DNA from: Comamonas sp. lk
Lineage (GTDB): Bacteria > Pseudomonadota > Gammaproteobacteria > Burkholderiales > Burkholderiaceae_C
Direction of reading: 5' to 3'
Assembly (NCBI GenBank): GCA_945898105.1
Contig: CAMDHL010000001.1
Span: 1-30,086 of the forward strand
DNA: 30,086 nt
Below are positions 6,359 to 26,506 of the stretch, in pieces (position 1 is the stretch's first letter; each line of letters starts with the position of its first letter). The notes below the pieces were generated by a model, which saw nothing but the letters and a program-made list of their open reading frames with translations, had not been told where the DNA came from and made no database searches. Both the position numbers and the translations under genes were made by a program.

Positions 6359-6386
6359 GCTGCTGACCTGAAGCACTGAAGACCCC

Positions 6387-6415
6387 AACATCGCGGGCCA
6401 TGAGCCCGCGGTGTT
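6387..6415 (+). other. Stable hairpin in the xylF-xylH gap
   Basis: AACATCGCGGGC (6387-6398) pairs with GCCCGCGGTGTT (6404-6415) over 12 positions with one G-T wobble and a 5-base CATGA loop. GTTTC follows, so the U-tract is weak. Such a hairpin after a binding-protein gene usually shields the upstream message or partly terminates, giving more XylF than XylH and XylG. Confidence 0.65.
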
Positions 6416-6439
6416 GTTTCTGACACCCAGGAATCTGTA

Positions 6440-8442: not shown

Positions 8443-8461
8443 TGACTGAGTGACTCAGGCC

Positions 8462-11048: not shown

Positions 11049-11078
11049 CACTTTAATTTTCAACCCACAGGACATTCA

Positions 11079-12398
11079 ATGAGCAACACCTATTTCCAAA
11101 GCGTAGACCCAATCAAATTTGAGGGTCCAAAATCACAAAACCCGTTGGCGTTCCACTGGTACGACAAAGACCGCGTCGTTATGGGCAAACGCATGGAGGA
11201 GCAACTTCGTTTTGCCGTCTGCTACTGGCATAGTTTTTCCTGGAATGGCTTTGATCCCTTCGGTTACGACGGCACTTTTGAACGCCCTTGGCAACAGATG
11301 GCAGAGCCCATGGCGGCAGCCCACGCCAAGGCCGATGCAGCCTTTGAGTTTTTCAAAAAACTTGGCGCGCCCTACTACTGCTTCCACGACCGTGATGTGG
11401 CCCCTGAAGGAAGCAGCCCACGCGAGAGCGCCAACCACCTGCGCGCCATGGTCGACGTGCTTGCGGCCAAGCAAGAATCCAGCGGTATCCAATTGCTCTG
11501 GGGAACGGCCAATCTGTTTAGCCACCGCCGCTTTATGTCGGGCGCTGCGACCAACCCGGATCCCGAAATCTTTGCGCTAGCCGCGCTGCAGGTCAAAGAG
11601 GCAATGGACGCGACCATGAAACTAGGTGGAGCAAATTTCGTTATATGGGGCGGGCGCGAGGGCTATGAAACCTTGCTCAATACCCGCATGGGCCAGGAGC
11701 TCGACCAGATGGGCCGCTTTTTACACATGGTTGTGGACTACAAGCACAAGATCGGTTTCAAAGGCACCATCCTGCTCGAACCTAAGCCGCGTGAACCGTC
11801 CAAACACCAATACGACTTCGACGTAGCCACAGTGTTCGGATTTTTGCAAAAGCACGGCCTGGAAAAAGAAATCCGCGTCAACATCGAGGCCAACCATGCC
11901 ACGCTAGCGGGCCACAGCTTCGAGCACGAAATTGCGAGCGCCATCGACCTGGGGATCTTCGGCTCCATCGACATGAACCGCGGCGACATGCAATGCCAAT
12001 GGGACACCGACCAGTTCCCCAACAGCGTCGCTGAGACAGCGCTGGCGATGTACCTCATCATGCAAGCGGGCGGATTCAGCACCGGTGGTTTGAACTTTGA
12101 CAGCAAAGTACGCCGCCAGTCGATTGACCCGCAGGACATGTTTTATGGCCACATCGGCGCTATGGACGTTGCTGCCCGCGCCTTGCTGGTGGCCGAGCAA
12201 ATGCTGCAAGACGGCCGCTTTGCCGCACATACCAAAGCACGCTACGCTGGTTGGGAAGCCCCACTAGGCCAGCAGATTATGGGCGGAGGACTCTCACTAG
12301 ACTCTCTGGCCGAACAGGTGCTGGCTGCAAATCGCGATACTGCGCCAGTCTCTGGCCGCCAAGAGTACCTAGAAAACTTACTCAATTCCTTTCTGTAA
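11079..12398 (+). CDS. xylA: Xylose isomerase
   Basis: This 439-residue metal-dependent TIM-barrel enzyme converts D-xylose to D-xylulose. Catalytic and metal sites are present: [13 protein letters not shown] with the ring-opening histidine and its aspartate, the WGGREGYE signature, [15 protein letters not shown] with metal-ligand Glu and catalytic Lys, [17 protein letters not shown], and [17 protein letters not shown] with the metal-binding aspartates. The length matches class II isomerases (about 440). A CACAGGA box precedes the ATG. It is the last clear gene of the xyl operon. Confidence 0.96.
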
Positions 12399-12423: not shown

Positions 12424-12591
12424 ATGGAAGCAACAGTGCAGAGCATGCTGCTTAAGGGGCAAATCAGCTGGGGAAAGTCCGTTGCGGGCATGCAGTCCGG
12501 GCAGCCGTGCGACATTCCCAAGATCGCTAATTTGCGGGTGATTGAGGCCCTTTTTTCTTCGGAGAAAGCCGGTGCCTACGTCACGCTCTAA
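12424..12591 (+). pseudogene. Short ORF resembling the C-terminus of a Gfo/Idh/MocA oxidoreductase
   Basis: An open frame of 55 codons runs from ATG at 12424 to TAA at 12589-12591. Its end, DIPKIANLRVIEALFSSEKAG then AYVTL, resembles the closing helix and strand of Gfo/Idh/MocA dehydrogenases. The readable frame extends a few codons upstream of the ATG, there is no ribosome site, and no Rossmann domain is present. I read it as the residue of a dehydrogenase gene deleted from the end of the xyl operon. It could instead be a genuine small protein. It overlaps the start of the next gene by 20 bases. Confidence 0.4.
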
Positions 12592-14221
12592 AGCGCCTTG
12601 CGCTTTACACCGCAGTGCTCGGGTGCTGCTGGCGGTTTTTTTGCTGCACGTCACGGTACCGGGTTGGACAGGCCCTGCTGCAAGCCCATTGATTGCGCGT
12701 TTTGTGGAAGAAACCGAAACCGCCGGTCTGCAATCCCGGTTTGAGGGCGAGGACGAATTCATGGTCGGCGGTGGCGTGGCGGTGTTTGACTGCGACGCAG
12801 ACGGGTTGCCCGAGGTTTACGTCACCGGTGGTGTCAACAAGGCCAAGTTCTATCGCAACCACAGCACGCGCGGCGGCCCGCTCAAACTGCAAGAGCAGCG
12901 CTCGGGCCTTGAACTGACAAGCGCCACCGGTGCCTACCCGCTGGACATTGATGGCGATAGCAACATGGACCTTGTCGTGTTGCGCGTCGGCGAGGTGGAG
13001 GTGTTTCGCGGTTTGGGGCAATGCAAGTTCGAGCGCGCCAACGCCCTTTGGAATATCAAGACCGGGAACGATTGGCATACCGCTTTTTCGGCCACCTGGG
13101 AGCCAGGTCAGTCATGGCCCACCCTCGCTTTCGGCACCTATTACGACCGCAGCCGTCCGGACTTTCCCTGGGGCACATGCACACCCGGCGCCCTGCTCCG
13201 ACCGGACCCAAAGGGCGGACGCTTTACGGCCCCCGAGCCGCTAGCGCCCGGTTACTGCGCACTGTCTATGTTGTTCTCTGACTGGAACCGCAGCGGCCAA
13301 GCTTCATTGCGCGCAAGCAATGACCGCGAGTACTACAAAGGCGGGCAAGAACAACTTTGGAAAGTCCAGCCTGGCAAGGCTCCCACCACCTACACCGCCG
13401 AGGAGGGCTGGAAGCGCCTCCAAATCTGGGGCATGGGTATTGCCAGCCACGACATTGACGGCGACGGGTATCCTGATGTTTTTCTGACCAGCATGGCCGA
13501 CAACAAGTTTCAAAAGCTCAGCGGCGACACCAGCCGCCCGGCCTACGTGGATGAGGCTTTCAAGCGCGGCATCACTGCGCATCGGCCCTACATCGGGGGC
13601 GATATACACCCCTCTACCGCTTGGCACGCGCAGTTTGCGGACGTGAACAACGACGGCTGGAGTGACCTTTTCATTGTCAAAGGCAACGTCTCCACCATGC
13701 CTGACTTTGCCATCCAGGACCCCAACAACCTGCTACTGGGTCAGCCCGACGGCAGCTTCTTCGAGGCCGGCAGTGTGTCCGGCGTGGCCAGCTTTCGACG
13801 CGGGCGGGGGGGCATGTTGGCCGACCTCAACGGCGACGGGTTGCTAGACATGGTGGTCGTTAATCGCTGGGAAAAAGCGCAGCTCTGGCGCAATGTAGGT
13901 AGCGGTAGCGCCATTGCGCCGGCACCGGTAGGCCACTGGCTACAACTGCGTCTGCGCCAAAGCGGAGGTAACCGCGATGCCGTCGGCGCCTGGGTGGAAG
14001 TCCAGACCGGCGATCGGGTCCAGCGTGAAGAACTCACCGTGGGCGGTGGCCACGCCAGCGGGCATCTTGGCTGGATGCATTTCGGCTTGGGCGAGACCTC
14101 TAAAGCACGCGTGCGGGTGCAATGGCCGGGTTCGGGATGGAGCGACTGGACTGCGGCGGACGCGGACGGTTTTTACGTGCTGGATCGCCAAAGCGGCTTG
14201 CGCCCTTGGAGGGCGCCGTGA
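12572..14221 (+). CDS. CRTAC1-family FG-GAP/VCBS repeat protein with ASPIC/UnbV domain
   Basis: This protein of about 549 residues is probably secreted: the N-terminus is basic and then hydrophobic (ARVLLAVFLLHVTVPG). It carries calcium-binding FG-GAP/VCBS blades, seen as repeated D-x-D-x-D-G motifs: FDCDADGLPEV, LDIDGDSNMDL, HDIDGDGYPDV, ADVNNDGWSDL and ADLNGDGLLDM. The C-terminal RDAVGAWVEVQTGDRV through GGGHASGHLGWMHFGLG matches ASPIC/UnbV. The fold is a beta-propeller of unknown molecular role. The start is taken as GTG at 12572 because GGAGAAAG precedes it; a TTG at 12542 would extend it by ten codons. It overlaps the haloperoxidase-like gene by one base (TGATG), so the two are coupled. 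Confidence 0.85.
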   Translation: MPTSRSKAPCALHRSARVLLAVFLLHVTVPGWTGPAASPLIARFVEETETAGLQSRFEGEDEFMVGGGVAVFDCDADGLPEVYVTGGVNKAKFYRNHSTRGGPLKLQEQRSGLELTSATGAYPLDIDGDSNMDLVVLRVGEVEVFRGLGQCKFERANALWNIKTGNDWHTAFSATWEPGQSWPTLAFGTYYDRSRPDFPWGTCTPGALLRPDPKGGRFTAPEPLAPGYCALSMLFSDWNRSGQASLRASNDREYYKGGQEQLWKVQPGKAPTTYTAEEGWKRLQIWGMGIASHDIDGDGYPDVFLTSMADNKFQKLSGDTSRPAYVDEAFKRGITAHRPYIGGDIHPSTAWHAQFADVNNDGWSDLFIVKGNVSTMPDFAIQDPNNLLLGQPDGSFFEAGSVSGVASFRRGRGGMLADLNGDGLLDMVVVNRWEKAQLWRNVGSGSAIAPAPVGHWLQLRLRQSGGNRDAVGAWVEVQTGDRVQREELTVGGGHASGHLGWMHFGLGETSKARVRVQWPGSGWSDWTAADADGFYVLDRQSGLRPWRAP

Positions 14222-15636
14222 TGCAAACCCCCGAAAGGTCACACCGCACGACACGCCTGCGGCATTGGCTTGGCCAGGCGATGCGCGCTGCAGACCGGGC
14301 GCTTGCCACTGTGCTGTTGATGACGCCTTTGTTTTTCGGCACGGCATATGCCCAAACCAGTGTGACGGTTGCACCACCAGCCGCCGCTTACAGCTCAGGC
14401 GTGGCCTACGAATGGTTTTATCTGGTGTCACAACTGCTGCAGCAAACTCCGGGAAACAGTCCGCCCGTGGCAGCACGTTCGCTGGGTTATTTGGGGCTGA
14501 CGCTTTACGAATCGGTGGTGCCTGGCATGCCCGGCTACCAGAGCCTGGCCGGGCAGCTCAATGAACTGAGCTCCCTGCCCTGGGCCCAACCCGACGAACC
14601 CCTGCACTGGCCCACGGTTGCCAATGCTTCTATGGCCACCATGACGCGCATGATGTTTAGCAACGCGAGCGCCGAAAACAAGGGACGCATCGATCTGCTG
14701 GAGCGCAGCCTGCCGCTGAAGTACCCGGACGACTTTGATCCGGCCAAAGTCACAGCCAACATCACCAATCGCTCGGAAACTTTCGGCAAGCTTATGGCCA
14801 TGGCCATCATGACCTGGGCACGCACCGACGGCGGCCATGAAGCCTGGGGGCCACTGCGCCGTAACCGCGCCAATTACGTCCCCCCCAGCGGTCCGGGAAC
14901 TTGGAGCGCCACGCCTTCCAAATACTTGCCACCGCTACTGTCATGGTGGGGCGAAGTCCGCCCTTTCGTACTGACTTCAACGCAGGAATGCGTACCGCCA
15001 CCCCCCACACCCTACGCGCAAGAAAGCGACTCCAGCTTTTACCGTGCGGCCAAAGAGGTCTACGACATAAGCAATTTCGCGACACAGGAGCAACGCCAAT
15101 TTGCCTTGTACTGGGCGGACGACCCGGGGAAAACGCCAACGCCGGCCGGGCATTGGTCCTATATTGCAAACGATCTGTTACGCAGCCAGAAGGCCGACCT
15201 GGGTCGGGCAGCGGCCACCCACGTATTGCTAAACATGGCTATGTCTGATGCTTTTGTGGCCGGATGGGCAGCCAAATACCAATACAACCTTATCCGCCCA
15301 GTGACCTACATCCAACTTTTTATCGATAGCAACTGGGTTACGCCACTGTTCACCACACCCAATTTCCCTGAGTACCCATCTGGCCACTCGGTCCAGTCCA
15401 GCGCGGCTGCGGGGGTTTTGGAGCAACAGTTCGGGAAAAATTTGCCCTTCACCGACAACACCCACAACGATCGCGGCTGGGGCCCACGCACGTTCCCGAA
15501 CTTCAACGCCGCGGCTAACGAGGCCTCGCTGTCGCGCATGTATGCAGGCATCCATTTCCGCTTTGGCAGCGAAGGCGGCCAGGCGCAGGGGCGCTGTGTG
15601 GCCAACAAGGTGATGGCACTACGGCTTAAACCCTGA
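14221..15636 (+). CDS. Vanadium-dependent haloperoxidase-like protein (PAP2 superfamily)
   Basis: This 471-residue protein has a twin-basic N-terminus followed by a hydrophobic stretch ending GTAYAQ (about 40-45), a probable signal peptide. The vanadate/phosphate pocket motifs are present: K352-x6-R359-P360 in KYQYNLIRP, PSGH at 386-389, and SR at 438-439 with H445. The usual form SRx5Hx3D ends here in G449. The family either oxidises halides with peroxide through bound vanadate or acts as an acid phosphatase; motif spacing and size favour the haloperoxidase branch. Start ATG at 14221 overlaps the preceding stop by one base. The CRTAC1 gene upstream probably encodes a functional partner. Confidence 0.85.
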   Translation: MQTPERSHRTTRLRHWLGQAMRAADRALATVLLMTPLFFGTAYAQTSVTVAPPAAAYSSGVAYEWFYLVSQLLQQTPGNSPPVAARSLGYLGLTLYESVVPGMPGYQSLAGQLNELSSLPWAQPDEPLHWPTVANASMATMTRMMFSNASAENKGRIDLLERSLPLKYPDDFDPAKVTANITNRSETFGKLMAMAIMTWARTDGGHEAWGPLRRNRANYVPPSGPGTWSATPSKYLPPLLSWWGEVRPFVLTSTQECVPPPPTPYAQESDSSFYRAAKEVYDISNFATQEQRQFALYWADDPGKTPTPAGHWSYIANDLLRSQKADLGRAAATHVLLNMAMSDAFVAGWAAKYQYNLIRPVTYIQLFIDSNWVTPLFTTPNFPEYPSGHSVQSSAAAGVLEQQFGKNLPFTDNTHNDRGWGPRTFPNFNAAANEASLSRMYAGIHFRFGSEGGQAQGRCVANKVMALRLKP

Positions 15637-16011: not shown

Positions 16012-16027
16012 ATGTAAACGTTATCAT
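16012..16027. promoter_or_regulatory. LacI-type operator upstream of the sugar ABC transporter
   Basis: ATGTAAACGTTATCAT is a near-palindrome (ATGnnAACGTTnnCAT) with the central CG usual for LacI-family sites. The identical 16 bases occur at 22472-22487, next to the lacI-type gene. It lies 48 bases before the binding-protein start and contains TATCAT, a possible -10 box. Confidence 0.75.
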
Positions 16028-16074
16028 CGTTGTTGCATCAACACGACTTGTTGAGCATTAACTAGGAGAAAACC

Positions 16075-17310
16075 ATGAAGCGTACGATTGTCGCTGGTCT
16101 TGTAAGCATTGCGCTTGCTTCGCCGGTTTTGGCGCAGGAATCTGTAGAAGTCCTGCATTGGTGGACATCGGGTGGCGAAGCAGCTGCTCTCGGTGTTCTG
16201 AAGAAAGATTTGGAAGGCCAGGGCGTCAAATGGAATGACATGCCTGTCGCCGGCGGCGGCGGCGAAGCTGCCATGACCGCACTGCGCGCCCGCGTAACCG
16301 CCGGCAACCCACCCACTTCGGTGCAAATGCTCGGCTTTGATATCCAGGACTGGGCCAAGCAAGGCGCACTGGGTGACCTCAACGCCCTTGCAACAAAAGA
16401 AAACTGGGACAAGAGAGTTCCCCGGGCCTTGCAGCAGTTCTCCAAGTACCAAGGTAAGTGGGTTGCTGCTCCAGTGAACATCCACTCCACCAACTGGGTG
16501 TGGGCGAATAAAGCGGTGCTGGAAAAAGCCGGCGTGACCACCATGCCCACCGACTTCGATGGTTTCCTGGCTGCTCTGGAAAAAGTACAAAAAGCCGGTT
16601 TCGTCGGCCTGGCGCATGGCGGCCAAGCCTGGCAAGAAGCCACCGTGTTTGACGGCGTCGTACTGGCTACGGGCGGAGTCGATTTCTATCGCAAAGCCTT
16701 TATCAACAAAGATAAAGCAGCGCTGGGTTCTGGCACCATGAAAAAATCCTTTGACCGCATGGCGGCCCTGCGCAAGTATGTGGACAAAGACTTTTCCAAC
16801 CGCGACTGGAATCTAGCATCGGCCATGGTCATAGAAGGCAAAGCCGGCTTCCAAATCATGGGTGACTGGGCCAAAGGCGAGTTCCTGAACGCCAAGAAAG
16901 TACCGGGCAAAGACTTCCTGTGCTTCCGCGTTCCTGGCACACAAGGTATGGTGTCCTTTAACGCCGACCAGTTTGGTATGTTCAAAGTGGGCGCCGGTGC
17001 CCAGGCAGCACAAACCAAGTTGGCCAGCGCCATCATGAACCCCTCCTTCCAGAGCGCGTTTAACGTAGTCAAAGGCTCAGTGCCCGCGCGTACCGACGTG
17101 TCGGATAAAGCTTTTGACGATTGCGGCAAAAAGGGCATGAAGGACTTGGCAGAAGCCAATTCCAAAGGCACTTTGGTCGGCTCCATGGCCCATGGCCACG
17201 CCGAAGCCGCTTCGGTCAAGAACGGCTTTTATGACGTGATCACCCAACACTTCAACGGCAAGCTAGACAGCGCCGCTGCGGTGAAGGCCATGGTCGCTGC
17301 CGCTGAGTAA
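16075..17310 (+). CDS. Sugar ABC transporter substrate-binding protein (glucose/mannose type)
   Basis: This 411-residue periplasmic binding protein is of family 1 (MalE/UgpB-like). The signal peptide is about residues 1-20, ending PVLAQ before [18 protein letters not shown]. The HWWTSGGE opening, [33 protein letters not shown] and [12 protein letters not shown] match the glucose/mannose-binding proteins of Pseudomonas (GtsA) and Thermus. The substrate is therefore probably an aldohexose, but other sugars are possible. AGGAGA precedes the ATG. A strong terminator separates it from the permeases, as expected for a binding protein made in excess. Control by the LacI-family repressor at 21.4-22.5 kb is inferred from the operator upstream. 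Confidence 0.9.
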
Positions 17311-17334
17311 AGCGCCTCTGGTGCATTACAAATA

Positions 17335-17366
17335 AGGGGAGGGGCTTGCCCCTCCCCTGTTTTTTT
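17335..17366 (+). terminator. Strong intrinsic (partial) terminator between binding protein and permease
   Basis: AGGGGAGGGGC (17335-17345) pairs perfectly with GCCCCTCCCCT (17348-17358), giving a GC-rich stem with a tight loop, followed by a run of seven T (17360-17366). The permease ATG begins five bases after the T-run, so the element also occupies the place of its ribosome site. Partial read-through is required for the downstream genes unless another promoter exists. Confidence 0.85.
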
Positions 17367-17370
17367 AGCT

Positions 17371-18237
17371 ATGAAAAATCGATGGTTACCCGCGCTCACC
17401 CTGACACCAAGCTTGGTCTTGGTCGGTGCATGCGTTTATGGCTTTATCGCCTTTACTATTTATCTCTCGTTTACCACCTCGACGCTGATGCCGCAGTTTG
17501 AGCTGGCAGAAGAAATCCCCTACCACCGCCTGTTTCGTCTGAGCACCTTTGCGCTATCGGCCAAAAACCTGGGGGTGTTCTCGGTTTTATACATTGGTCT
17601 GAGCTTATTGCTGGGCATGCTCATGGCGATTTTGATCGACCAAAAAATTCGCGGCGAAACCGCCTTCCGCTCTATTTTTCTCTACCCCATGGCGCTGTCC
17701 TTTATCGTGACCGGCACCGCATGGAAGTGGATTTTGGACCCCAGCATCGGCTTTGAGCGCACCGTGCATTTGATGGGTTTTCCAGACTTTGTATTCGACT
17801 GGATAAAAGACGGCGACATGGCGATTTACTGCGTCGTCATTGCCGCTGTATGGCAAACCTCGGGCTTTGTGATGGCCTTGTTTCTGGCCGGTTTACGTGG
17901 GGTGGATACCGAGGTCATGAACGCGGCCCGCGTCGATGGCGCCAAGGGCTGGAACATGTACTGGCGCATCGTTATCCCGCAGTTGGGGCCGAGCTTTATC
18001 TCTTCTTTCGTGATTCTGGCGCACATGGCGATCAAGAGCTACGACCTGGTGATCGCCCTCACCGGCGGCGGGCCGGGCCGGGCCACCTGGCTGCCATCGG
18101 TATTTGTCTATCAATACACCTTCACCCGCAATGAAATGGCGCTGGGCGCCGCCAGCGCGGTCTTGATGCTGATCGCGGTGAGCATTGTTGTTATCCCCTA
18201 TGTTCGCAGTGAACTGCGTCAAAAGGCGCAATCATGA
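17371..18237 (+). CDS. Sugar ABC transporter permease (first subunit)
   Basis: This 288-residue inner-membrane permease is of the MalF/UgpA (binding-protein-dependent type 1) family. About six hydrophobic helices are visible, the first at 10-31. The conserved EAA loop appears as VMNAARVDGAKGWNMYWRIVIPQLGPS near 185-212, which docks the ATPase. It resembles GtsB of the Pseudomonas glucose system. The ATG at 17371 has no Shine-Dalgarno sequence; the terminator T-run lies where one would be expected. It overlaps the second permease by four bases (ATGA). Confidence 0.9.
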   Translation: MKNRWLPALTLTPSLVLVGACVYGFIAFTIYLSFTTSTLMPQFELAEEIPYHRLFRLSTFALSAKNLGVFSVLYIGLSLLLGMLMAILIDQKIRGETAFRSIFLYPMALSFIVTGTAWKWILDPSIGFERTVHLMGFPDFVFDWIKDGDMAIYCVVIAAVWQTSGFVMALFLAGLRGVDTEVMNAARVDGAKGWNMYWRIVIPQLGPSFISSFVILAHMAIKSYDLVIALTGGGPGRATWLPSVFVYQYTFTRNEMALGAASAVLMLIAVSIVVIPYVRSELRQKAQS

Positions 18238-19097
18238 ACCGCAGCTCGACCGATCTTTTGCAGCGCGTGCTGCTCTATGTGATACTGGGTTTTCTGGCGC
18301 TGGTGTTTTTGCTTCCAATTTATGTAATGGTGGTCAACTCCTTCAAACCGCTGGAAGAAATCCGCGGCGGCAACCTGATCAGCCTGCCGCTGAGCGCCAC
18401 CATTGAGCCCTGGCTGCAAGCATGGAGCAAAGCACAAATCGGCGTGCAGCCCACTGGTTTGCGCCCGTATTTCATGAACTCGTTCTTGATGGTGATTCCG
18501 GCAGTGCTTTTTTCCACGCTGATCGGCTCACTCAATGGCTATGTGCTGACGCAATTCAAGATGCGGGGCGCCACGCTGATGTTTGGTGCACTCTTGTTTT
18601 CAGTTTTCATTCCCTTTCAAATCGTACTCATCCCAATGGCCAAACTTCTGGGCATGCTGGGCTTGGCCGGCACGGTTAAGGGGTTAATACTGGTGCATAC
18701 GGTATATGGCATTGGCTTTGGGACCTTGTTTTTCCGCAACTTTTACACCGCTTTCCCGCATGAGCTGGTGAAATCCGCGCGCATGGACGGCGCCGGCTTT
18801 TTCGTGCTGTACTGGCGTTTGCTGCTGCCCAATAGCTTGCCCATCATCGTGGTGAACGTGATCTGGCAGTTCACCAACATCTGGAACGACTTTTTGTTCG
18901 GCGCATCCTTTAGCGATTTTTCGTCGTACCCGCTAACGGTCGCGTTAAACAACCTGGTGAGCAGCTCTACCGGCGTGAAGGAATACAACGTGCATTTCGC
19001 CGGTGCGTTTATCGCGGCACTGCCCACGCTGGCGGTCTATGTAGTCTCAGGTAAATATTTTGTGCGGGGCCTCATGGCAGGCTCAGTCAAGGGTTAA
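18234..19097 (+). CDS. Sugar ABC transporter permease (second subunit)
   Basis: This 287-residue permease is of the MalG/UgpE family and pairs with the preceding one to form the channel. It has about six membrane helices and the EAA loop ELVKSARMDGAGFFVLYWRLLLPNSLPI near 178-205. The ending FVRGLMAGSVKG is the typical MalG-type C-terminus. The start overlaps the previous stop as ATGA, so translation is coupled and the subunits should be made in equal amounts. The ATPase gene follows after eight bases. Confidence 0.92.
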   Translation: MNRSSTDLLQRVLLYVILGFLALVFLLPIYVMVVNSFKPLEEIRGGNLISLPLSATIEPWLQAWSKAQIGVQPTGLRPYFMNSFLMVIPAVLFSTLIGSLNGYVLTQFKMRGATLMFGALLFSVFIPFQIVLIPMAKLLGMLGLAGTVKGLILVHTVYGIGFGTLFFRNFYTAFPHELVKSARMDGAGFFVLYWRLLLPNSLPIIVVNVIWQFTNIWNDFLFGASFSDFSSYPLTVALNNLVSSSTGVKEYNVHFAGAFIAALPTLAVYVVSGKYFVRGLMAGSVKG

Positions 19098-19105
19098 GGA
19101 TTGGT

Positions 19106-20158
19106 ATGGCAACGCTAACGATAAAAGATATTTCCAAAAGCTTTGGTAACACCACGGTGCTGCAAAACATCGATTTGGATCTTGCCGACGGTGAGTTTTT
19201 GGTGTTGGTCGGTCCTTCCGGCTGCGGCAAAAGTACGCTGATGAACATCGTGGCCGGTTTGGAAGAGCCCAGCACCGGAAGCCTGCATCTGGATAAGCGC
19301 GACATCACAAGGGAAGCGCCGGACACGCGCGACATCGCCATGGTGTTCCAAAGCTATGCGCTCTACCCGAATATGACGGTGGCAGAAAATATCGCCTTTC
19401 CTTTGGAGATGCGAAAGGTGCCGGTCGCCCAGCGCAAAGCCGCCGTCGATGAAGTGGCATCGCTTTTACAAATTGGCCACTTGCTGCAACGCAAGCCGCG
19501 CCAGCTATCGGGCGGGCAACGCCAGCGCGTCGCCATTGGCCGCGCACTTGCGCGTAGGCCTTCTTTGTTTTTGTTTGACGAACCGCTGTCCAATCTGGAT
19601 GCCAAGCTGCGCGTGGACATGCGTGCCGAGCTTAAAAAATTGCACATGGCAACTGGCGTCACCACAATCTATGTCACCCATGACCAGGTGGAAGCCATGA
19701 CGCTGGGTACCCGCATTGCGGTGCTCAAAGATGGTCGCATCCAACAACTGGCCACACCCATGGAGTTGTACGAGCGACCGGCCAATACCTTTGTCGCGGA
19801 GTTCATCGGCTCACCCGCCATCAACTGGAGCGAGAGCGAAGTCGGCAGCGACGGGCAGATTTACCTGGGTCAGGACAGCAGCGGCTTGTTCTTGCCCGAC
19901 CTGGCTGGGCGGCGCGTGCGCATCGGCATACGCCCCGAAGACATGGTGGTCAGCGAGGCCGGCACCTTGCAAGCGACCGTTACTCTGGTCGAACCCACGG
20001 GCGCCGAAAGCTACGTTTTAGTGAATTCTGTAATGGGTGAGTGCACCTTGCGCATGGCCGGTGCCGCCAGCTATGCGCCTGGCGACGCTTTGCGCATGGC
20101 AGTTGCCACCCACAAAATTCATTTGTTCGACGCACAAAGCGGCGAGCGTCTGAACTAA
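19106..20158 (+). CDS. Sugar ABC transporter ATP-binding protein (MalK/UgpC family)
   Basis: This 350-residue ATPase energises the two permeases. Walker A is GPSGCGKST near 37-45, the Q-loop is VFQSYALYPNMTV, the signature LSGGQRQRVAIGRAL is near 132-146, Walker B is LFLFDEPLSNLDAKLR and the switch is YVTHDQVEAMTL. The C-terminal TOBE/OB domain (RIGIRPEDMVV and after) is the MalK-type regulatory domain. Automatic pipelines often call this family ugpC, but the neighbours point to a sugar, not glycerol phosphate. AAGGA precedes the ATG. It is the last gene of the transporter operon and converges with the DUF1479 gene. Confidence 0.93.
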   Translation: MATLTIKDISKSFGNTTVLQNIDLDLADGEFLVLVGPSGCGKSTLMNIVAGLEEPSTGSLHLDKRDITREAPDTRDIAMVFQSYALYPNMTVAENIAFPLEMRKVPVAQRKAAVDEVASLLQIGHLLQRKPRQLSGGQRQRVAIGRALARRPSLFLFDEPLSNLDAKLRVDMRAELKKLHMATGVTTIYVTHDQVEAMTLGTRIAVLKDGRIQQLATPMELYERPANTFVAEFIGSPAINWSESEVGSDGQIYLGQDSSGLFLPDLAGRRVRIGIRPEDMVVSEAGTLQATVTLVEPTGAESYVLVNSVMGECTLRMAGAASYAPGDALRMAVATHKIHLFDAQSGERLN

Positions 20159-20168
20159 GCCGCAACGC

Positions 20169-20189
20169 GCTGGGCTATCACTGCCCGGC
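20169..20189. terminator. Weak hairpin between convergent genes
   Basis: GCTGGGC (20169-20175) pairs with GCCCGGC (20183-20189) with one wobble and a 7-base loop. It is the only hairpin in the 44-base gap between the ATPase and the DUF1479 gene. It lacks a T-tract on either strand. Confidence 0.3.
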
Positions 20190-20202
20190 ACCGCGTATCC
20201 AA

Positions 20203-21465
20203 TCAGCTGGTAAAGCCCATTTGTCTTAATCCCAGCGGAGACAAATCGGCCAATGTGGCGCGGCCATTGAAGTCGACTTCGTAGTTTTCGGGGGCAAAGT
20301 CCGGCGACGACAAACCGGCTTGAAAGGCCGGCTTTTGTAGCGCCTGAAAACTACGGTTCTTCTCGCAATCGGGCGCGGCGCCGATATACATCACATTACT
20401 CGAACCGCTGCCTAGGTGCTCATCTTCTACGCCATGGATTACATCCGGGTGCCACCAGACTGTATCGCCCTGCTCCACTTTGGGAATCGGACCATAGGCA
20501 CGCAGTATCAGGCTGTGAAACTCCTGATTCACCCCCAGCGCGCGCCCGGCGCGGGCGCCGCAAAGGCTGTCCTCGGGCACATCGTCTTGCAAGGCGCGCA
20601 ACAGCACCCAGGCCATGGCATCGGCAATTGGCGCAACGCGCAAAGTGCCATCACCCGGGCCTTGCGACGTCAGGGCCGTCCAACCCTGGAAGGTGCGGAA
20701 CATTCGGCACACCGCAGGCGAAGGAATCTCGTGGGTCTCGGTGCGAAAAGCGGCGTCAAACGCGTTGTACTGACGCACGTCGCCGCCAAAAACATGGCGA
20801 TAGACCTGCTGGTAGCCGGGGTCTATCCAGCGCTCAATCGAGCCACCATCGGTATGCGGCGACAAGCCTAAAGTTTTGTCTCCGGGCTGGCGCTGGCGCA
20901 CGCGGTCCGAATAAGTGCATTCCAGGTCCGGGTTAAACACCTGCTTGCCCGCATGCTCAAACTCCCACAAGTGATTCAGCCAGCGGCGCACGCGCGCCAG
21001 CTCTGGCGATTGGCGCGCGTCCATTTGTGGGCGCGACCAATAGATGCCAAAAATTTGCGGACGCCCGCTCGACAAACTACTGAAGTACTTGTCGATACCG
21101 CGCTTACTCACCTCTTTTTCTAGGTACTTGTTACGGTCCAAGTAATCGGCCAATTCCACGTTCCAGGTCTGCACACGGTCTTGCCCGAAGACTCCGCGCA
21201 CCACCACGCAGCCGCGTTGGCGCACGCGGTCTAAGGTGGCGCCGTCCAGGCTGTCCAAGTCTGCCGCGTTGATGGTAGGCACCGGCGACACCCCTGCGGC
21301 GCGTTCGGCCTCAATTACCTGCACTTGCGACTCTATATGCGCCGTCAGGGTGGCAAAGCGCTCCTTCAAATCCGGCATAGCGGCGCGCAATGCGCGTTTT
21401 GTCTGGCGGATAGTTTCCAGGTGAGGCGCGTTAGGGTCTTGCGTTTCAACGGGGGTCGGTGTCAT
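20203..21465 (-). CDS. DUF1479 protein, putative Fe(II)/2-oxoglutarate dioxygenase
   Basis: This 420-residue protein belongs to DUF1479 (YbiU-like), which has the double-stranded beta-helix fold of 2-oxoglutarate dioxygenases. The probable iron triad is the HTD in LSPHTDGGSIERW plus the histidine in WWHPDVIHGVED, with SSNVMYIGAAP close behind. No substrate is established for the family. The ATG at 21465 overlaps the 3' end of the LacI-family gene by 20 bases, so the two are translationally coupled. A GTG at 21516 would lengthen it by 17 residues but lies deeper in the upstream gene. Its position inside a sugar regulon suggests it acts on a sugar or sugar derivative; this is inference. Confidence 0.85.
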   Translation of the reverse strand: MTPTPVETQDPNAPHLETIRQTKRALRAAMPDLKERFATLTAHIESQVQVIEAERAAGVSPVPTINAADLDSLDGATLDRVRQRGCVVVRGVFGQDRVQTWNVELADYLDRNKYLEKEVSKRGIDKYFSSLSSGRPQIFGIYWSRPQMDARQSPELARVRRWLNHLWEFEHAGKQVFNPDLECTYSDRVRQRQPGDKTLGLSPHTDGGSIERWIDPGYQQVYRHVFGGDVRQYNAFDAAFRTETHEIPSPAVCRMFRTFQGWTALTSQGPGDGTLRVAPIADAMAWVLLRALQDDVPEDSLCGARAGRALGVNQEFHSLILRAYGPIPKVEQGDTVWWHPDVIHGVEDEHLGSGSSNVMYIGAAPDCEKNRSFQALQKPAFQAGLSSPDFAPENYEVDFNGRATLADLSPLGLRQMGFTS

Positions 21466-22456
21466 ACAAGCTTTCAATAGGTGGCGGTTGAAAAAGTATT
21501 TGTTGCGGTTCAGCACTGGGGGCTGTCATCTGGTGCAATAGGCTTTTGCCCAACGAGGTGCCGGTGAGGTAAATATCTTCAAAACAGCCCAGCAAAGGCT
21601 GACGTACATAGCGCGGCAAATGGCTGCTGTACTTGACCACCAAGTCCAGGTCCTGGCGCAGGTGCAAACCGGCATCTAGCACCGCCGTGGTCAGCGCAAT
21701 CACCGGCGCTTCGCGCGTCAGCACCAGGCCGTCAAAGCTGCGTGCATGGGTACGCGTCCATTGGTAAATTTTTTCTGGGCTCTGGTCCAAGTCCATGTCT
21801 TCAATCACCCGGCCTTCTAGGCCCAAGGCAGCGCAAGCCGCGCGAAAGCCACTAGCCAGAAAGCCCCAAAAAGTACCCCCGGCCTCGGGCAGCAAAATCG
21901 CCAAGCGCCTTCGGCCCTGTGCATGTAGCGCCTGCACGGCATCAGCGGCATAGCGCTCGTTGGCGAAATCGACATAAGCGTGCTCAGGTGTGATGCGGGT
22001 GCGACCATGCGTCACAAACGGCAGCGGCGCCTGCTGCAAGTAGCGCACCCGCGCATCATCGGGCAGGGTGTGGGTAATCACCACGCCGTCGGCCAACTTG
22101 TTTTCCACCACATAGCGCAATGCCTTCATACCGTTGCCGTCGGTGCCTTCGGGCATAACGATGAGGTGGTAATCCGTGTCCTGCAAGGCATCGCTGATGC
22201 CCAGCATCAAGTCCTTGAAGGCCGGTTGGTTGGCGTCCGAGCGGTTCACCAAAAAAGCCAGTACATGGGTTTTGCCAGTTTTCAGGCGCACCGCCGCCCG
22301 GTCGCGCACAAAGTGCAGAGCTTTGGCCGCCTCCAGCACCCGCGCCCGCGTGCCCGGTAGCACTTGGGGGCTCCCAGCAAGCGCGCGCGACACCGTGGCG
22401 AGGGACAAACCCGTGGCCTGGGCAATGGTTTGGGTGGTGACTTTAGGGGTTTTCAT
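21446..22456 (-). CDS. LacI-family transcriptional repressor
   Basis: This 336-residue regulator has the N-terminal helix-turn-helix TTQTIAQATGLSLATVSRALAGSPQV (about 6-31) and hinge region, then a periplasmic-binding-protein-like effector domain (VLAFLVNRSDANQPAFKDLMLGI and after). It probably binds the palindrome at 22472-22487, right before its own gene, and the identical one at 16012-16027 before the transporter. The effector is presumably the imported sugar or a derivative. The ATG at 22456 is preferred; a TTG three codons upstream is the alternative. It shares an operon with the DUF1479 gene. Confidence 0.92.
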   Translation of the reverse strand: MKTPKVTTQTIAQATGLSLATVSRALAGSPQVLPGTRARVLEAAKALHFVRDRAAVRLKTGKTHVLAFLVNRSDANQPAFKDLMLGISDALQDTDYHLIVMPEGTDGNGMKALRYVVENKLADGVVITHTLPDDARVRYLQQAPLPFVTHGRTRITPEHAYVDFANERYAADAVQALHAQGRRRLAILLPEAGGTFWGFLASGFRAACAALGLEGRVIEDMDLDQSPEKIYQWTRTHARSFDGLVLTREAPVIALTTAVLDAGLHLRQDLDLVVKYSSHLPRYVRQPLLGCFEDIYLTGTSLGKSLLHQMTAPSAEPQQILFQPPPIESLYDTDPR

Positions 22457-22471
22457 GGGGTACAAACCAAA

Positions 22472-22487
22472 ATGTAAACGTTATCAT
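22472..22487. promoter_or_regulatory. LacI-type operator between repressor and dehydrogenase genes
   Basis: ATGTAAACGTTATCAT is identical to the site at 16012-16027. It sits in the 57-base gap between two divergent genes, 15 bases from the repressor start and 26 bases from the dehydrogenase start. One bound repressor could therefore close both promoters, giving autoregulation and control of the oxidoreductase. Confidence 0.75.
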
Positions 22488-22513
22488 GGGATTTTTCTAT
22501 TAGGAGAAACACT

Positions 22514-23521
22514 ATGCGTTGGGTTTTGGTTGGTGCCAGTACGATTGCTGGCGAATGGATGGTCAGCGCCATCCGGGCGGTGGGTGACGAGGTGGTGGCT
22601 GTGGTGTCGGGCGACCTGCAACGCGCTACAGACTTTGCCGCCAAGCACGGCATCGCCCACGCCCTGACGGATGAAAAAGCCTACCCCGCCCTGGGCGTGG
22701 ACGCCGTGTACATCTCCAGCACCAATGAAAAACACGAGGCTTCCACCTTGTTTGCCGCCGTGCAGGGCTGCCATGTGCTGTGCGAAAAACCCCTGGCCAC
22801 CAGTTTGGACGCCGCTATCCGTATGGTGCGGGCCTGCCGCGATGCAGGTGTGGTTATGGGCACCAACCACCATTTACGTCACAACGGCCCGCACCGCGCC
22901 ATGCGCGAACACCTTCGCGCCGGCACCTTGGGCAAGGTAGTAGCGGTGCGCATGCAGCACTCGGTATATCTGCCCACACATCTGCAAGGTTGGCGCCTGG
23001 ACAGGCCCACCGCAGGCGGCGGTGTGGTGCTGGACATCGTAGTGCACAACGCCGATTCGCTGGCCTTTTTGCTCGGCGAATACCCAGTGGAAGTCTGCGC
23101 CATGGTGTCCAACAGCGGCATGGCCAAGGGCCTGGAGGACAACGCCATGTCCGTATGGCGCTTTGCTAGCGGCATCACCGCCTCCAGCCACCAGGGCTTT
23201 AACACGCCCTACGCTGCCACTGGCCTTGAACTTCATGGCACCCGCGCCAGCCTGCACGGTAACGGCATGATGAGCCAACAACCCAGCGGCGACCTGGTAC
23301 TTTGCAGCGAGCGCGGCAGCGAGGTGCTGCCCGTGCAACGCGCTAATTTGTACGAAGTGTGCTTGCAGGAAATGCACCGCGCGATCCGAGGCGAGTCGCA
23401 CGAAATGGCGGACGGAGTGGCCGGCGCCAAGTCCCTAGCCGTAGCCCTTGCAGTGCTGGAAAGTGCAAATTCTGGCCGGCAAGTGGCGGTCGCGGATGTG
23501 GATGCCTTGTTGGTCAATTAA
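22514..23521 (+). CDS. Gfo/Idh/MocA-family oxidoreductase
   Basis: This 335-residue NAD(P)-dependent dehydrogenase is of the glucose-fructose oxidoreductase/inositol dehydrogenase family. The N-terminal Rossmann fold begins MRWVLVGASTIAGEW, a variant of the usual GxGxxG. It continues through DAVYISSTNEKH to the hallmark CEKPLA near 91-96. The C-terminal domain has RPTAGGGVVLDIVVHNADSLAFLLG, with the conserved Asp and His of the catalytic helix. AGGAGA precedes the ATG. It is divergent from the LacI-family gene and shares its operator. The family oxidises sugars, sugar alcohols or glycosides; the substrate here is presumably the one imported by the ABC system. Confidence 0.9.
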   Translation: MRWVLVGASTIAGEWMVSAIRAVGDEVVAVVSGDLQRATDFAAKHGIAHALTDEKAYPALGVDAVYISSTNEKHEASTLFAAVQGCHVLCEKPLATSLDAAIRMVRACRDAGVVMGTNHHLRHNGPHRAMREHLRAGTLGKVVAVRMQHSVYLPTHLQGWRLDRPTAGGGVVLDIVVHNADSLAFLLGEYPVEVCAMVSNSGMAKGLEDNAMSVWRFASGITASSHQGFNTPYAATGLELHGTRASLHGNGMMSQQPSGDLVLCSERGSEVLPVQRANLYEVCLQEMHRAIRGESHEMADGVAGAKSLAVALAVLESANSGRQVAVADVDALLVN

Positions 23522-23565
23522 TCTTAGAAAAAGTGCCGTAGCAAGCATCTAAGCACCTAATTAAC

Positions 23566-23602
23566 GGCTTACTCCTGTTCGACAAAGCGGGGGAGTTAAG
23601 CC
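23566..23602. terminator. Hairpin between the dehydrogenase and AGE-epimerase genes
   Basis: GGCTTACTCC (23566-23575) pairs with GGAGTTAAGCC (23592-23602) with one bulged base and a 16-base loop, and TCTTT follows. It lies in the 155-base gap between convergent genes and is a plausible terminator for the dehydrogenase message, perhaps for both strands. Confidence 0.45.
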
Positions 23603-23676
23603 TCTTTGAACGGTAAAGGAAGCTTGGGACAGGTCCGTAAGTTGGGCCGCTGCACGAAACCTGCGGTGCAAGTAGC

Positions 23677-24855
23677 TCAATCCCGCAAACCACCCACCTG
23701 CATGACATCCCAGCAAGCGCCCATGGTGTGGTAGTCGGTTTTACCGGCGGGGGATTTGGTGTTTTCCAACTTGCTGCCGTCGGCAGACAAGATGCGAAAC
23801 CAGGCACCGTACTGGTGGTCCACCATGTGTTGCCAGCTCCATTGCCATGTGCGCTGGTATTGGTCCAAAAATTCCTGCTTGCCCGTGGCGCGCCATAGGC
23901 GCCAGGCACTGGCGAAGGACTCGGCCTGCACCCAGAAATATTTGTCGCTGTCGCAGTGCTTCAAGTCCGGGTCAAAGCCATAGACCAGGCCGCCGTGTTG
24001 CGCGTCCCAGCCGTGTTGGTAAGCGGCGCGCTGCAGCTCTTCTGCGCGTTGCAGCCAGCGCGGATTGGGTTGGTGCTGCCAGGCGATCATCAGCAGTTTG
24101 GCCCACTCGGTTTGGTGACCGGTCTGGAAACCCCAGGGCTTGAAAATGTTGCCAGGATTCTCACGGTTGTAGTCCCAGTCCAGCGACCAGTCCTGGCGGT
24201 AATGCTCCCAAACTAGACCATCGGACTGCCCGGCCAGCTCAAACGCAAATCGCTCTATCAGCAGCACGGCGCGGTCCCAGTAGCGTTGCTCGCCAGTGAA
24301 TTCAAAAGCCGTTAAGCAGGCCTCGCACATATGCATATTGGCGTTTTGACCGCGGTAATCGATCAACACGCCTTCGGGGGTGATTTCGTCGGCATAGGCG
24401 CGCGCATCGTTCTGAAAAAACGCCGCGTTCATTTGGTCAAACGCTTGCCCTACAGCATCGCGCGAGCAGGCACCCACCCGAAAGGCGTGGCTGTGTGCCA
24501 GCAGCACAAAAGCCTGCCCGTAGGCCATGGCGGTCGCGTCTTGCACGCGGCCCGCCTCAAGCGTCCAACCATACAAACCACTGGGCAAACGAAAGCTTTG
24601 CACGTGCGCCAATGCATGGCGCGTCCAGTCAAGGTAATGCGCGCGGCCGGTATGGTGAAAGGCCATGGACCAGTTAAATACAAAGCGCGTGGCACTGACC
24701 AGATGCCGGTGCGAACGTTCATACACCGTGCCATCGTCTAGAAAATAATGGAAGAACCCACCTTGCGCGTCCAGGGCATTGGGTTCGTAAAACGCGAGGG
24801 TTTTGTCAATGTGCTCGCTCAAAAAACGACGGCTGTCAAATTCGGGTGCGCTCAA
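23677..24855 (-). CDS. AGE-family sugar epimerase/isomerase
   Basis: This 392-residue protein is of the N-acylglucosamine 2-epimerase superfamily, which folds as an alpha6/alpha6 barrel and interconverts sugars at C2 or between aldose and ketose. Family landmarks are the N-terminal GGFFHYFLDDG, RHLVSATRFVFNWSMA, NANMHMCEACLTAFEFTGE, WGFQTGHQTEWAKLL and the late WVQAESFASAWRLW. The histidines in NMHMCEA and GHQTEW are likely catalytic. Mannose isomerase, mannose-glucose epimerase and sulfoquinovose isomerase are all possible relatives. It is the last gene of a reverse operon and starts 15 bases after the aldose epimerase. It would move a hexose such as mannose or glucose into central metabolism. 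Confidence 0.87.
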   Translation of the reverse strand: MSAPEFDSRRFLSEHIDKTLAFYEPNALDAQGGFFHYFLDDGTVYERSHRHLVSATRFVFNWSMAFHHTGRAHYLDWTRHALAHVQSFRLPSGLYGWTLEAGRVQDATAMAYGQAFVLLAHSHAFRVGACSRDAVGQAFDQMNAAFFQNDARAYADEITPEGVLIDYRGQNANMHMCEACLTAFEFTGEQRYWDRAVLLIERFAFELAGQSDGLVWEHYRQDWSLDWDYNRENPGNIFKPWGFQTGHQTEWAKLLMIAWQHQPNPRWLQRAEELQRAAYQHGWDAQHGGLVYGFDPDLKHCDSDKYFWVQAESFASAWRLWRATGKQEFLDQYQRTWQWSWQHMVDHQYGAWFRILSADGSKLENTKSPAGKTDYHTMGACWDVMQVGGLRD

Positions 24856-24870
24856 TGCGAAACTCCTCGC

Positions 24871-25869
24871 TTAGGACGTGAAAGAAAAATCCAGGGCCAA
24901 TGTGTGGTGGTATTCGCGCTGCGGGCCGTACCACACATCGCTGCCCCAGGCTGGGCCGTTGGGCATGTCTTCGGTTTCCAAACACAGGCCAGCACCGGGC
25001 CCGTGGGGCACGCCCAGCGCGGGGCTGCGCGGGCGCAAACTCCCGCTGGCGTAAAGGTGCAAAAAAGGTCGGTCCGCGCTGACCTGCATGGCTATCCCGC
25101 CGGCTTGCACACGCGCCACAGGGCGCACTGCACCGGCCCCACTGCGCAAAACCATTGCAACATCCAAGTGCGGCACACAGGCGGGTGCCACCGGTACACC
25201 ATGACGGAAATCAAAGCAGGTGCCGTCCACCGGCACCGCTGGCAGCGGTAGTTCTTGCGCGCCCACGGGGTGGTAACTGTCCGCGTCAACTTGCAGGGTA
25301 TGGCCGCAGATATTGGCTGTACCGTCCAGGTTCCAGTAACTGTGTTGCACGATATTTATAGGGGAATCGGCATCGAGCCGGGCATCTGCCTGCCACAACA
25401 AACGATCGCCCTCCAATCGGTAGAGCACGCGCGCCTGGCAGCGCCCCGGAAAGCCCATGTCGCCATCGGCAGAGTCCAGCGTCAACACGACGCCGCCGGA
25501 ATCTTGCTGCCCGATCTGCCAATCACGCTGTCCCCACCCGGCGCTACCACCGTGGATGCAATGGCCCAGGGGATGGTTGGCATCCAGAACATAGCGCTCA
25601 TCACCTCGCTCAAGAACGGCGCCGCCAATACGGTTGCCATAGCGGCCGCATACCGCACCGATGGACATGGTGTCTTGCCGGTAGGCATCGGGCTCGTTAA
25701 AGCCTAAAGACAAAGGCCGCACACCTTCGGGTGCATGCAGCCAAAACAATTGCATGAGGCGCGCACCATAAGGGATGACCCAGGCTACAAAATTTTCCGA
25801 GCGCAAGACCAGAACGCCTGGAGGCGCTGGCATTAGCTCGGGGTAGGAGTCGCCCTGCACAAATGGCAT
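24871..25869 (-). CDS. Aldose 1-epimerase (GalM-like)
   Basis: This 332-residue beta-sandwich mutarotase interconverts the alpha and beta anomers of an aldose. Key residues are visible: the asparagine and arginine of CGRYGNRIGGA, the histidine of HCIHGG, the catalytic histidine in IVQHSYWNLDG and the catalytic glutamate in LCLETEDMPNGP. The length fits GalM (about 340). It lies four bases after the GNAT gene and 15 bases before the AGE-epimerase gene, so all three are probably cotranscribed. Supplying the correct anomer to the isomerase is a natural job for it. Confidence 0.9.
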   Translation of the reverse strand: MPFVQGDSYPELMPAPPGVLVLRSENFVAWVIPYGARLMQLFWLHAPEGVRPLSLGFNEPDAYRQDTMSIGAVCGRYGNRIGGAVLERGDERYVLDANHPLGHCIHGGSAGWGQRDWQIGQQDSGGVVLTLDSADGDMGFPGRCQARVLYRLEGDRLLWQADARLDADSPINIVQHSYWNLDGTANICGHTLQVDADSYHPVGAQELPLPAVPVDGTCFDFRHGVPVAPACVPHLDVAMVLRSGAGAVRPVARVQAGGIAMQVSADRPFLHLYASGSLRPRSPALGVPHGPGAGLCLETEDMPNGPAWGSDVWYGPQREYHHTLALDFSFTS

Positions 25870-25873
25870 CGGG

Positions 25874-26401
25874 CTAAATCAGCGTACGCTGCATACGCAG
25901 CTCGGCAATGCCATGCCCGCCAACTTGCACTTCGCGCTCGGCGCCCAATTCCCGCTTGAAACCGGCCAATTCAAAAAAGCGCAAAGCCGTTTTATTGCGC
26001 GTTTGTAGCCAAAGGGTAACGTCAATGCAACCTTCGTCATGCAAGCCTTGACGCGCTGCATGCCACAAGGACAGACCGACGCCAAGGCCTTGAAAATCCG
26101 GATGCACATAGATGTCGGTGATCTCGCCAGTGGTCTGGCGGCTGCCTTCGTCGCGGCTGCGGTCAAAACCGACAAAACCGACAATTCGGTCGCCATGCAA
26201 AGCGGCCATCACCTGGGGCTCGGCAAACTCAATCGCATCGCGCCAATAAGGCTGGCGCTTGTCTTGGCCCAAAGGCGGAAGTTGGTCGGTGCCCAACAAG
26301 GACTGGTACATCTCAAGCGCTACCAGCGCAAACAAATCACTAATCGCTTTGGCATCGCGCACCACAGTGGCGCGTACCGGAAAAACAGAGGTGCTGGACA
26401 T
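25874..26401 (-). CDS. GNAT-family N-acetyltransferase
   Basis: This 175-residue acetyltransferase uses acetyl-CoA to acetylate an unknown amine. The acetyl-CoA pyrophosphate loop is in ITDIYVHPDFQGLGVGLSLWHAARQ (Q/R-x-x-G-x-G/A pattern), and the later NKTALRFFELAGFK is the standard end of motif B. The ATG at 26401 is preferred over a TTG ten codons upstream. It is the first gene of the reverse GNAT-galM-AGE group. Its substrate and any link to sugar metabolism are unknown. Confidence 0.85.
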   Translation of the reverse strand: MSSTSVFPVRATVVRDAKAISDLFALVALEMYQSLLGTDQLPPLGQDKRQPYWRDAIEFAEPQVMAALHGDRIVGFVGFDRSRDEGSRQTTGEITDIYVHPDFQGLGVGLSLWHAARQGLHDEGCIDVTLWLQTRNKTALRFFELAGFKRELGAEREVQVGGHGIAELRMQRTLI

Positions 26402-26506
26402 GGAAACTGCAATCACAAAAGAACGAAACAAAAGGCGGAACCAATTGTCGCAGGATTGCGCGGGCCTTTGCGCGCCCGCACTGCGCTTAGCGTTAAGCTT
26501 TGCCCC

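Follow-up and report, generated by a model that had tools for sequence, protein, structure and literature searches.

A predicted LacI-family regulon of Comamonas sp. lk, with a DUF1479 protein as candidate C1-hydroxylase in the proposed catabolism of 1,5-anhydro-D-fructose

The window analysed here, a stretch of 30,086 nucleotides from Comamonas sp. lk (contig CAMDHL010000001.1), carries a cluster of sugar-related genes together with two identical copies of a 16-bp sequence, the predicted operators of a LacI-family repressor. After the first copy, on the forward strand, lie the four genes of an ATP-binding cassette (ABC) importer: a sugar-binding protein (SBP, 16075..17310; PF01547), permease A (17371..18237; PF00528), permease B (18234..19097; PF00528) and an ATPase of the UgpC/MalK type (19106..20158; PF00005 and TOBE_2, with NF008653 at 439 bits against a cut-off of 432). 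By its protein families this importer is a CUT1-type ABC system. The genes for a DUF1479 / Gig2-like protein (20203..21465; PF07350) and for the repressor (21446..22465) follow on the reverse strand, and the second copy of the 16-mer separates them from a forward-strand gene (22514..23521) for a Gfo/Idh/MocA protein that resembles 1,5-anhydro-D-fructose (AF) reductase. Two further genes, both on the reverse strand, encode a protein of the AGE family (23677..24855; PF07221) and an aldose 1-epimerase, or mutarotase (24871..25869; PF01263). We consider it rather probable that this cluster is a catabolic regulon for AF, or for a related 1,5-anhydrohexitol, in which the DUF1479 protein would act as a C1-hydroxylase.

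The 16-mer ATGTAAACGTTATCAT occurs exactly twice in the full window, at 16012..16027 and 22472..22487 (no strand is assigned to either), and no third copy is present there even when up to three mismatches are allowed. The initial annotation had described two identical copies, one before the importer and the other between the repressor and the Gfo/Idh/MocA gene, without a third, and exact matching and the gene coordinates bear this out; the symmetry that it had also noted is real but imperfect, six of the eight base pairs of the palindrome being matched (ATGnnAACGTTnnCAT). None of 100 shuffled sequences gave two matches, the mean being 0.10 matches per shuffle. Between operator 1 and the start codon of the SBP gene there are 47 bp, and this operator has a counterpart upstream of the SBP gene in the loci L011, L012, L013 and L017. 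Operator 2 is common to the divergent LacI-DUF1479 and reductase genes; it precedes the likely LacI start codon (ATG at 22456) by 15 bp and that of the reductase (ATG at 22514) by 26 bp. A looser pattern, ATGNNAACGTTNNCAT, was found at one extra place in the Comamonas genome, whose assembly is 77.6% complete, as ATGCTAACGTTGACAT at G000:C160:1309; it was rejected as a third operator because it falls inside a coding open reading frame (ORF), read by eye as fructose-bisphosphatase, and is probably due to chance.

The repressor matches PF00356 at 32.1 bits (cut-off 27) and the sensor-domain models PF00532 and PF13377. Since its reading frame, which stops at 21446, overlaps that of the DUF1479 gene (ATG at 21465) by about 20 bp, both genes are likely to be carried on one transcript. 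A search of 299 genomes of the window's family at E <= 1e-40 gave repressor matches in seven of them: the genome of the window itself, five at 54-57% identity in the same neighbourhood, and one at 33% (G297). The latter was rejected as an orthologue, given its low identity and its place in another sugar cluster, which has neither DUF1479 nor an operator site. All five orthologous loci carry the site between the LacI and reductase genes, as an exact TGTAAACGTTATCA in four and as two one-base variants in G124. Two such intergenic sites, 55 bp apart, are found in G286, G216 and G124, and in each of these the importer is also preceded by an exact site. In G243 and G039 the intergenic region holds an exact site and, 42 bp from it, a second with three mismatches; no site precedes the importer there within five mismatches. 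The spacing of these paired operators (55 bp in L011, L012 and L013; 42 bp in L014 and L015) is near whole helical turns, and the window has a single operator at this position. Both sites also occur in L017; this contig comes from an uncultured betaproteobacterium, and its cluster proteins share 93-99% identity with those of the window. Over the six whole genomes that carry the repressor, TGTAAACGTTWYCA occurs 13 times, in every case inside this cluster, while the reversed control pattern does not occur at all.

The initial annotation had named conservation of the motif near orthologues of the repressor as the check on its proposal, and the five orthologous loci and L017 do carry it. This conservation supports the idea that a single repressor would control the importer, the oxidoreductase, itself and DUF1479, and a LacI regulon with this predicted operator is well supported. 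The gene list proposed at that time holds, with the addition of two likely pathway genes that it had missed on the reverse strand (23677-24855 and 24871-25869), and for the sugar, whose identity had been left open, AF is now put forward as the predicted substrate. The regulon resembles other LacI-family sugar regulons (Ravcheev et al. 2014, PMC4052901) in being local, in the CG-centred palindrome and in the repressor gene adjoining its targets; a regulator of this pathway was not found in the accessible text of that survey.

The assignment of the substrate begins with the oxidoreductase. Its closest solved relatives are AF reductases (4koa, E 3.5e-98; 2glx, E 5.1e-96), and it is predicted to be an enzyme of this kind, a maker of 1,5-anhydromannitol. 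Residues K92, D174, H178, A12, S32 and R37 (window numbering), which we take to be catalytic or NADPH-selecting positions of the solved reductase, are invariant in the 36 rows counted, from which four long or remote rows (L022, L023, L145 and L147) had been left out. The protein is about 52% identical to the annotated AF reductase of Sinorhizobium meliloti (L162). A scan of genome contigs with a profile of the reductase alignment gave 80 loci, of which L017-L023 were used, the others not exceeding 36% identity in the best segment of each. One of those used, L018, lies on a contig filed as a metagenome-assembled genome (MAG) of Verrucomicrobia, encodes a reductase 93% identical to that of the window, and is probably a mis-binned contig.

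The DUF1479 reading frame is open from 21516, and the ATG at 21465 was chosen as its start. The protein scores 415.5 bits with PF07350, for which the cut-off is 27, and is related to the solved YbiU and GIG2 chains. The residues H204xD206...H344 are invariant in all 31 rows of the DUF1479 alignment and are also present in the four solved relatives aligned; an HxD...H arrangement is the metal triad of Fe(II)/2-oxoglutarate dioxygenases. Four arginines (R188, R190, R212 and R257) are likewise invariant. An AlphaFold model built from three sequences had a mean predicted local distance difference test (pLDDT) score of 43, too poor for use. For the family as a whole, YbiU of E. coli included, we see about an even chance that its members are Fe(II)/2-oxoglutarate C1-hydroxylases that convert 1,5-anhydromannitol or 1,5-anhydroglucitol to mannose or glucose. 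In the accessible parts of earlier reports, ybiU, ybiV, ybiW, ybiY and fsaA have been placed in an uncharacterised pathway (PMC8464067), and ybiU is listed among genes without information (PMC6412132). In a report from 2012, a BLAST match (E 1.6) made ybiU a candidate for a reaction that forms thymidine monophosphate (dTMP) (PMC3423039), a competing idea for which no support was seen. No paper joining anhydrohexitols with dioxygenases was found by a search that covered mostly open literature, so that earlier work on DUF1479 may exist.

Linkage of these genes was assessed in the 299 family genomes, with a threshold of E <= 1e-60 for the reductase. The presence counts are lower bounds, since only some of the first-look candidates of each genome were scored, and the counts for reductase, DUF1479 and repressor are taken to refer to the same drawn genomes, since tallies and handles agree. 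DUF1479 was present in at least 13 genomes, the reductase in at least 19 and both in at least nine (Fisher's exact p 1.2e-9, relatedness being ignored), and wherever both occur (9/9) their genes lie side by side or are separated by the LacI gene alone. The 13 family loci with DUF1479, the window among them, include nine with the reductase, nine with a homologue of the AGE-family isomerase, 11 with the importer (counting G116, whose importer is just 43-47% identical) and, at the threshold used, four with the mutarotase. Gene order varies among these loci. In G267 the genes follow one another on one strand as LacI-SBP-PermA-PermB-ATPase-reductase-DUF1479-isomerase; in G058 and G074 the order, also on one strand, is LacI, reductase, DUF1479 and isomerase; and in G119 and G282 it is LacI-importer-DUF1479-isomerase, without a reductase of this type. 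The LacI proteins of these five differently ordered clusters fall below the orthologue threshold of E <= 1e-40. In a tree of 40 reductase rows, those linked to DUF1479 fall into two distinct groups, one of nine rows (support 100/99) and one of five (100/100). The pairing with DUF1479 is not confined to one kind of reductase, and LacI protein and gene order vary with it.

The AGE-family protein is closest to 5x32 (E 8e-126), the D-mannose isomerase of Marinomonas (PMC7762179). With NF051846, the NCBIfam equivalog for mannose isomerase of the Pseudomonas type, it reaches 159 bits, below the cut-off of 600. It may well be tied functionally to the cluster, as may the mutarotase, whose gene is also found in the clusters of G286, G216 and G124. 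As YihS is a much more distant relative of the AGE protein than 5x32, catabolism of sulfoquinovose was dropped as an explanation. A PfkB kinase was detected in each of the four genomes searched (4/4); a sugar kinase of this family lies about 8 kb from an importer gene at G286:C1:1423317-1424192 and at G216:C3:342007-342891, and could be a fructokinase.

From these assignments we infer a substrate, a reaction for DUF1479 and a mode of regulation as follows. AF, an anhydro-sugar derived from starch, would be imported by the ABC system and reduced with NADPH to 1,5-anhydro-D-mannitol; the DUF1479 protein, as an Fe(II)/2-oxoglutarate dioxygenase, would then hydroxylate 1,5-anhydromannitol at C1 to give the hemiacetal D-mannose, and the mutarotase and mannose isomerase would convert this to D-fructose for a kinase encoded elsewhere. 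The repressor, bound to the two identical operators and released by the imported sugar or its product, would control itself, DUF1479, the importer and the reductase. Because C1 hydroxylation of a 1,5-anhydrohexitol gives a hemiacetal, that is, the free sugar, an oxygenase is the expected step between an AF-type reductase and a mannose isomerase. A route of this form has been described for rhizobia, in which AF is reduced to 1,5-anhydromannitol by a specific reductase and C1 hydroxylation then yields mannose (PMC12441222).

The same class of substrates is suggested by a second context of DUF1479, in which the reductase plays no part. In E. coli K-12, ybiU, ybiV, ybiW and ybiY lie in a row on one strand, with fsaA divergent, and homologues of ybiW and ybiV adjoin DUF1479 at five of ten loci of the same class in the phylum sample (L148, L150, L151, L153 and L154). 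YbiW cleaves 1,5-anhydroglucitol-6-phosphate, according to the part of a review (PMC12441222) that cites Ma et al. 2024. YbiU may perform on 1,5-anhydrohexitols the same C1 chemistry as that proposed for the protein of the window.

Several results weigh against the proposal that the cluster degrades AF by way of DUF1479. The phylum sample (398 genomes), whose counts are likewise lower bounds and are taken to refer to one set of drawn genomes, held the reductase in at least 17 genomes and DUF1479 in at least 14, with the genome of the window itself the only one on both lists; DUF1479, which would be expected beside such a reductase, was found in none of the 16 other reductase-bearing genomes. 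Reductase and isomerase genes occur together without DUF1479 nearby in G049, G167 and G245, none of which is among the family genomes with DUF1479, and in L021, a short contig of a Thiomonas MAG; both DUF1479-linked groups of the tree also contain such rows. These loci would fit glucosone as the substrate, or another oxygenase. A homologue of a coenzyme A (CoA) transferase follows the reductase at ten of 18 mapped loci, at three family loci (L218, L220 and L221) and in S. meliloti, and a cluster of this kind appears to be a different pathway, one that does not spell the conversion of AF to mannose. The branch of the tree that parts DUF1479 or isomerase contexts from CoA-transferase contexts has moderate support (87/86), with 12 rows carrying neither label, and the window reductase, which belongs to a sister group of the reductases at CoA-transferase loci, does not group with the rhizobial enzymes, the S. 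meliloti protein lying across this split, where support is below the starring limit. As to the enzyme itself, the accessible text of the 2025 review calls the rhizobial C1-hydroxylating activity 'cytochrome P450-family-like' (PMC12441222). Within the window, no operator was found at the mannose-isomerase-like gene or at the mutarotase gene, and the nearest solved chains of the SBP are 4r2b and other sugar- or glucose-binding proteins. Regarding the ybiU row, the remaining five of the ten same-class DUF1479 loci have no ybiW nearby, and E. coli NBRC 3301 is stated, at second hand and without conditions, to show no increase in turbidity on 1,5-anhydromannitol (accessible text of PMC13259140). 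Elsewhere, the neighbours of DUF1479 in L161 suggest, by eye, catabolism of uronates, and no recognisable anhydrohexitol context was seen in L149, L152, L155, L157, L158, L159 and L164, whose neighbours were partly scanned.

Some of these observations bear on a reversed order of the same two steps, in which DUF1479 would hydroxylate AF at C1 to give D-glucosone, the reductase would convert this to D-mannose and the isomerase would act next. In that case glucosone itself would be the substrate at loci that have the reductase and the isomerase without DUF1479 nearby, and in work by Kuhn, Yu and Giffhorn from 2006 the characterised reductase reportedly reduces 2-keto-aldoses to manno-sugars. We consider this order unlikely, as in G119 and G282, which have DUF1479 and the isomerase but no such reductase, DUF1479 alone would have to deliver mannose, and as the published rhizobial route passes through 1,5-anhydromannitol (PMC12441222, in the part available). 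The similarity of the SBP to glucose-binding proteins could instead indicate an ordinary regulon for uptake of glucose or mannose, which the isomerase and the mutarotase would suit directly, with the Gfo/Idh/MocA protein a general sugar oxidoreductase and DUF1479 unrelated. This, too, is unlikely, since both the residues and the nearest solved relatives of the oxidoreductase are those of AF reductase, and since mannose alone requires neither a reductase nor an oxygenase, yet the two are neighbours in every family genome that has both. A third explanation keeps the oxygenase and changes its substrate: DUF1479 would free mannose for the isomerase by stripping some other substituent from it or from an anhydro-sugar; oxidative dealkylation, with loss of an O-alkyl group, is one example. 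Such chemistry suits an Fe/2-oxoglutarate oxygenase, and DUF1479-isomerase operons without the reductase do exist, but the AF-type reductase would be left without a role and the position of ybiU beside ybiW without an explanation, so that we regard this explanation as quite improbable. It is highly improbable that the pair of sites arose as a chance repeat or serves a different regulator: an identical pair of 16-mers does not by itself name the protein that binds it, but the shuffled sequences and the confinement of all 13 genomic sites to this cluster speak against it.

The proposed pathway through 1,5-anhydromannitol and DUF1479 can be compared with two known systems. The catabolism of AF in Sinorhizobium morelense (Kuhn, Yu and Giffhorn 2006, as described in PMC12441222) shares with it an enzyme of the AF-reductase family, and the reductase locus of S. 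meliloti has, like the window, a LacI gene and an ABC sugar importer. The clusters differ in that L131 and S. meliloti carry a CoA transferase, an enoyl-CoA hydratase and an aldehyde dehydrogenase; the three were detected beside the reductase by a Pfam scan of L131, and none of them is among the ten window genes scanned (16075-26431). In L131 and L162 the reductase was also seen with LacI, an ABC sugar importer and a DUF993 or dihydrodipicolinate-synthase-family protein. The SBP of the window is 58-62% identical to those encoded near the reductase genes of L131, L142 and L143. The anaerobic pathway of E. coli for 1,5-anhydroglucitol and 1,5-anhydromannitol (YbiW, PflD), as far as its description is accessible, is likewise directed at inert 1,5-anhydrohexitols; it relies on an oxygen-sensitive glycyl-radical cleavage of the 6-phosphate, whereas an oxygen-dependent hydroxylation of the free polyol is proposed for the window.

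If the proposal is correct, DUF1479 would supply the missing oxygenase step in one group of AF-degrading bacteria and would form an aerobic equivalent of the glycyl-radical anhydroglucitol pathway encoded beside ybiU; this would explain why the E. coli row places an oxygen-using protein next to an oxygen-sensitive radical enzyme. A family without an assigned reaction thus receives a concrete one that can be tested, and a gene candidate is offered for the C1-oxygenation step, which is credited to a paper of 2006 and called 'still unidentified' in the accessible text of the 2025 review (PMC12441222).

Clusters with other LacI proteins may have their own operators. G119 and G282, which are members of a single genus, have a common palindrome before the importer, GTGACNTCGANGTCAC / GTGACGTCGAGGTCAC (L214:15053 and L215:5628, one of them in reverse complement), which is a candidate operator for their LacI protein. 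No CG-centred palindrome was found near the LacI genes of G267, G074 and G064.

The DUF1479 gene was also seen in other surroundings. On two Pantoea plasmids (L225 and L226) it is flanked by genes for a haloacid dehalogenase (HAD) hydrolase and for a YciT regulator, and the annotation of the stretch viewed contains no glycyl-radical enzyme; in Caballeronia and in L156 it accompanies an SBP and an aldo/keto reductase. The UR115 plasmid (L161:1230-10221) carries a DUF1479 protein 60% identical to that of the window, with divergent genes that by eye encode glucuronate isomerase, a TRAP transporter, KduI and KduD. In one E. coli record (L165:7968-14277), ybiU is followed by LacI, a major facilitator superfamily (MFS) transporter and a glycosidase of glycoside hydrolase family 31 (GH31), which is not beside ybiU in K-12 (L224); GH31 homologues also occur near DUF1479 in L148, L150, L153 and L154. 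The E. coli GH31 neighbour was considered as an alpha-1,4-glucan lyase and dropped, as it has WNDNNE and WSGD at positions that are presumably the catalytic sites of GH31 hydrolases.

The genes that flank the cluster in the window were read by eye. To its left, on the forward strand at 5339-12398, lies a probable xylose operon (binding protein, permease, ATPase, ROK regulator, xylulokinase and xylose isomerase), and between the two sugar operons (12542-15636) there are an ORF with FG-GAP-like repeats and one of the PAP2/vanadium-haloperoxidase type. To the right, at 26039-28683, are ORFs with several CxxCH motifs, as in proteins of the cytochrome c type.

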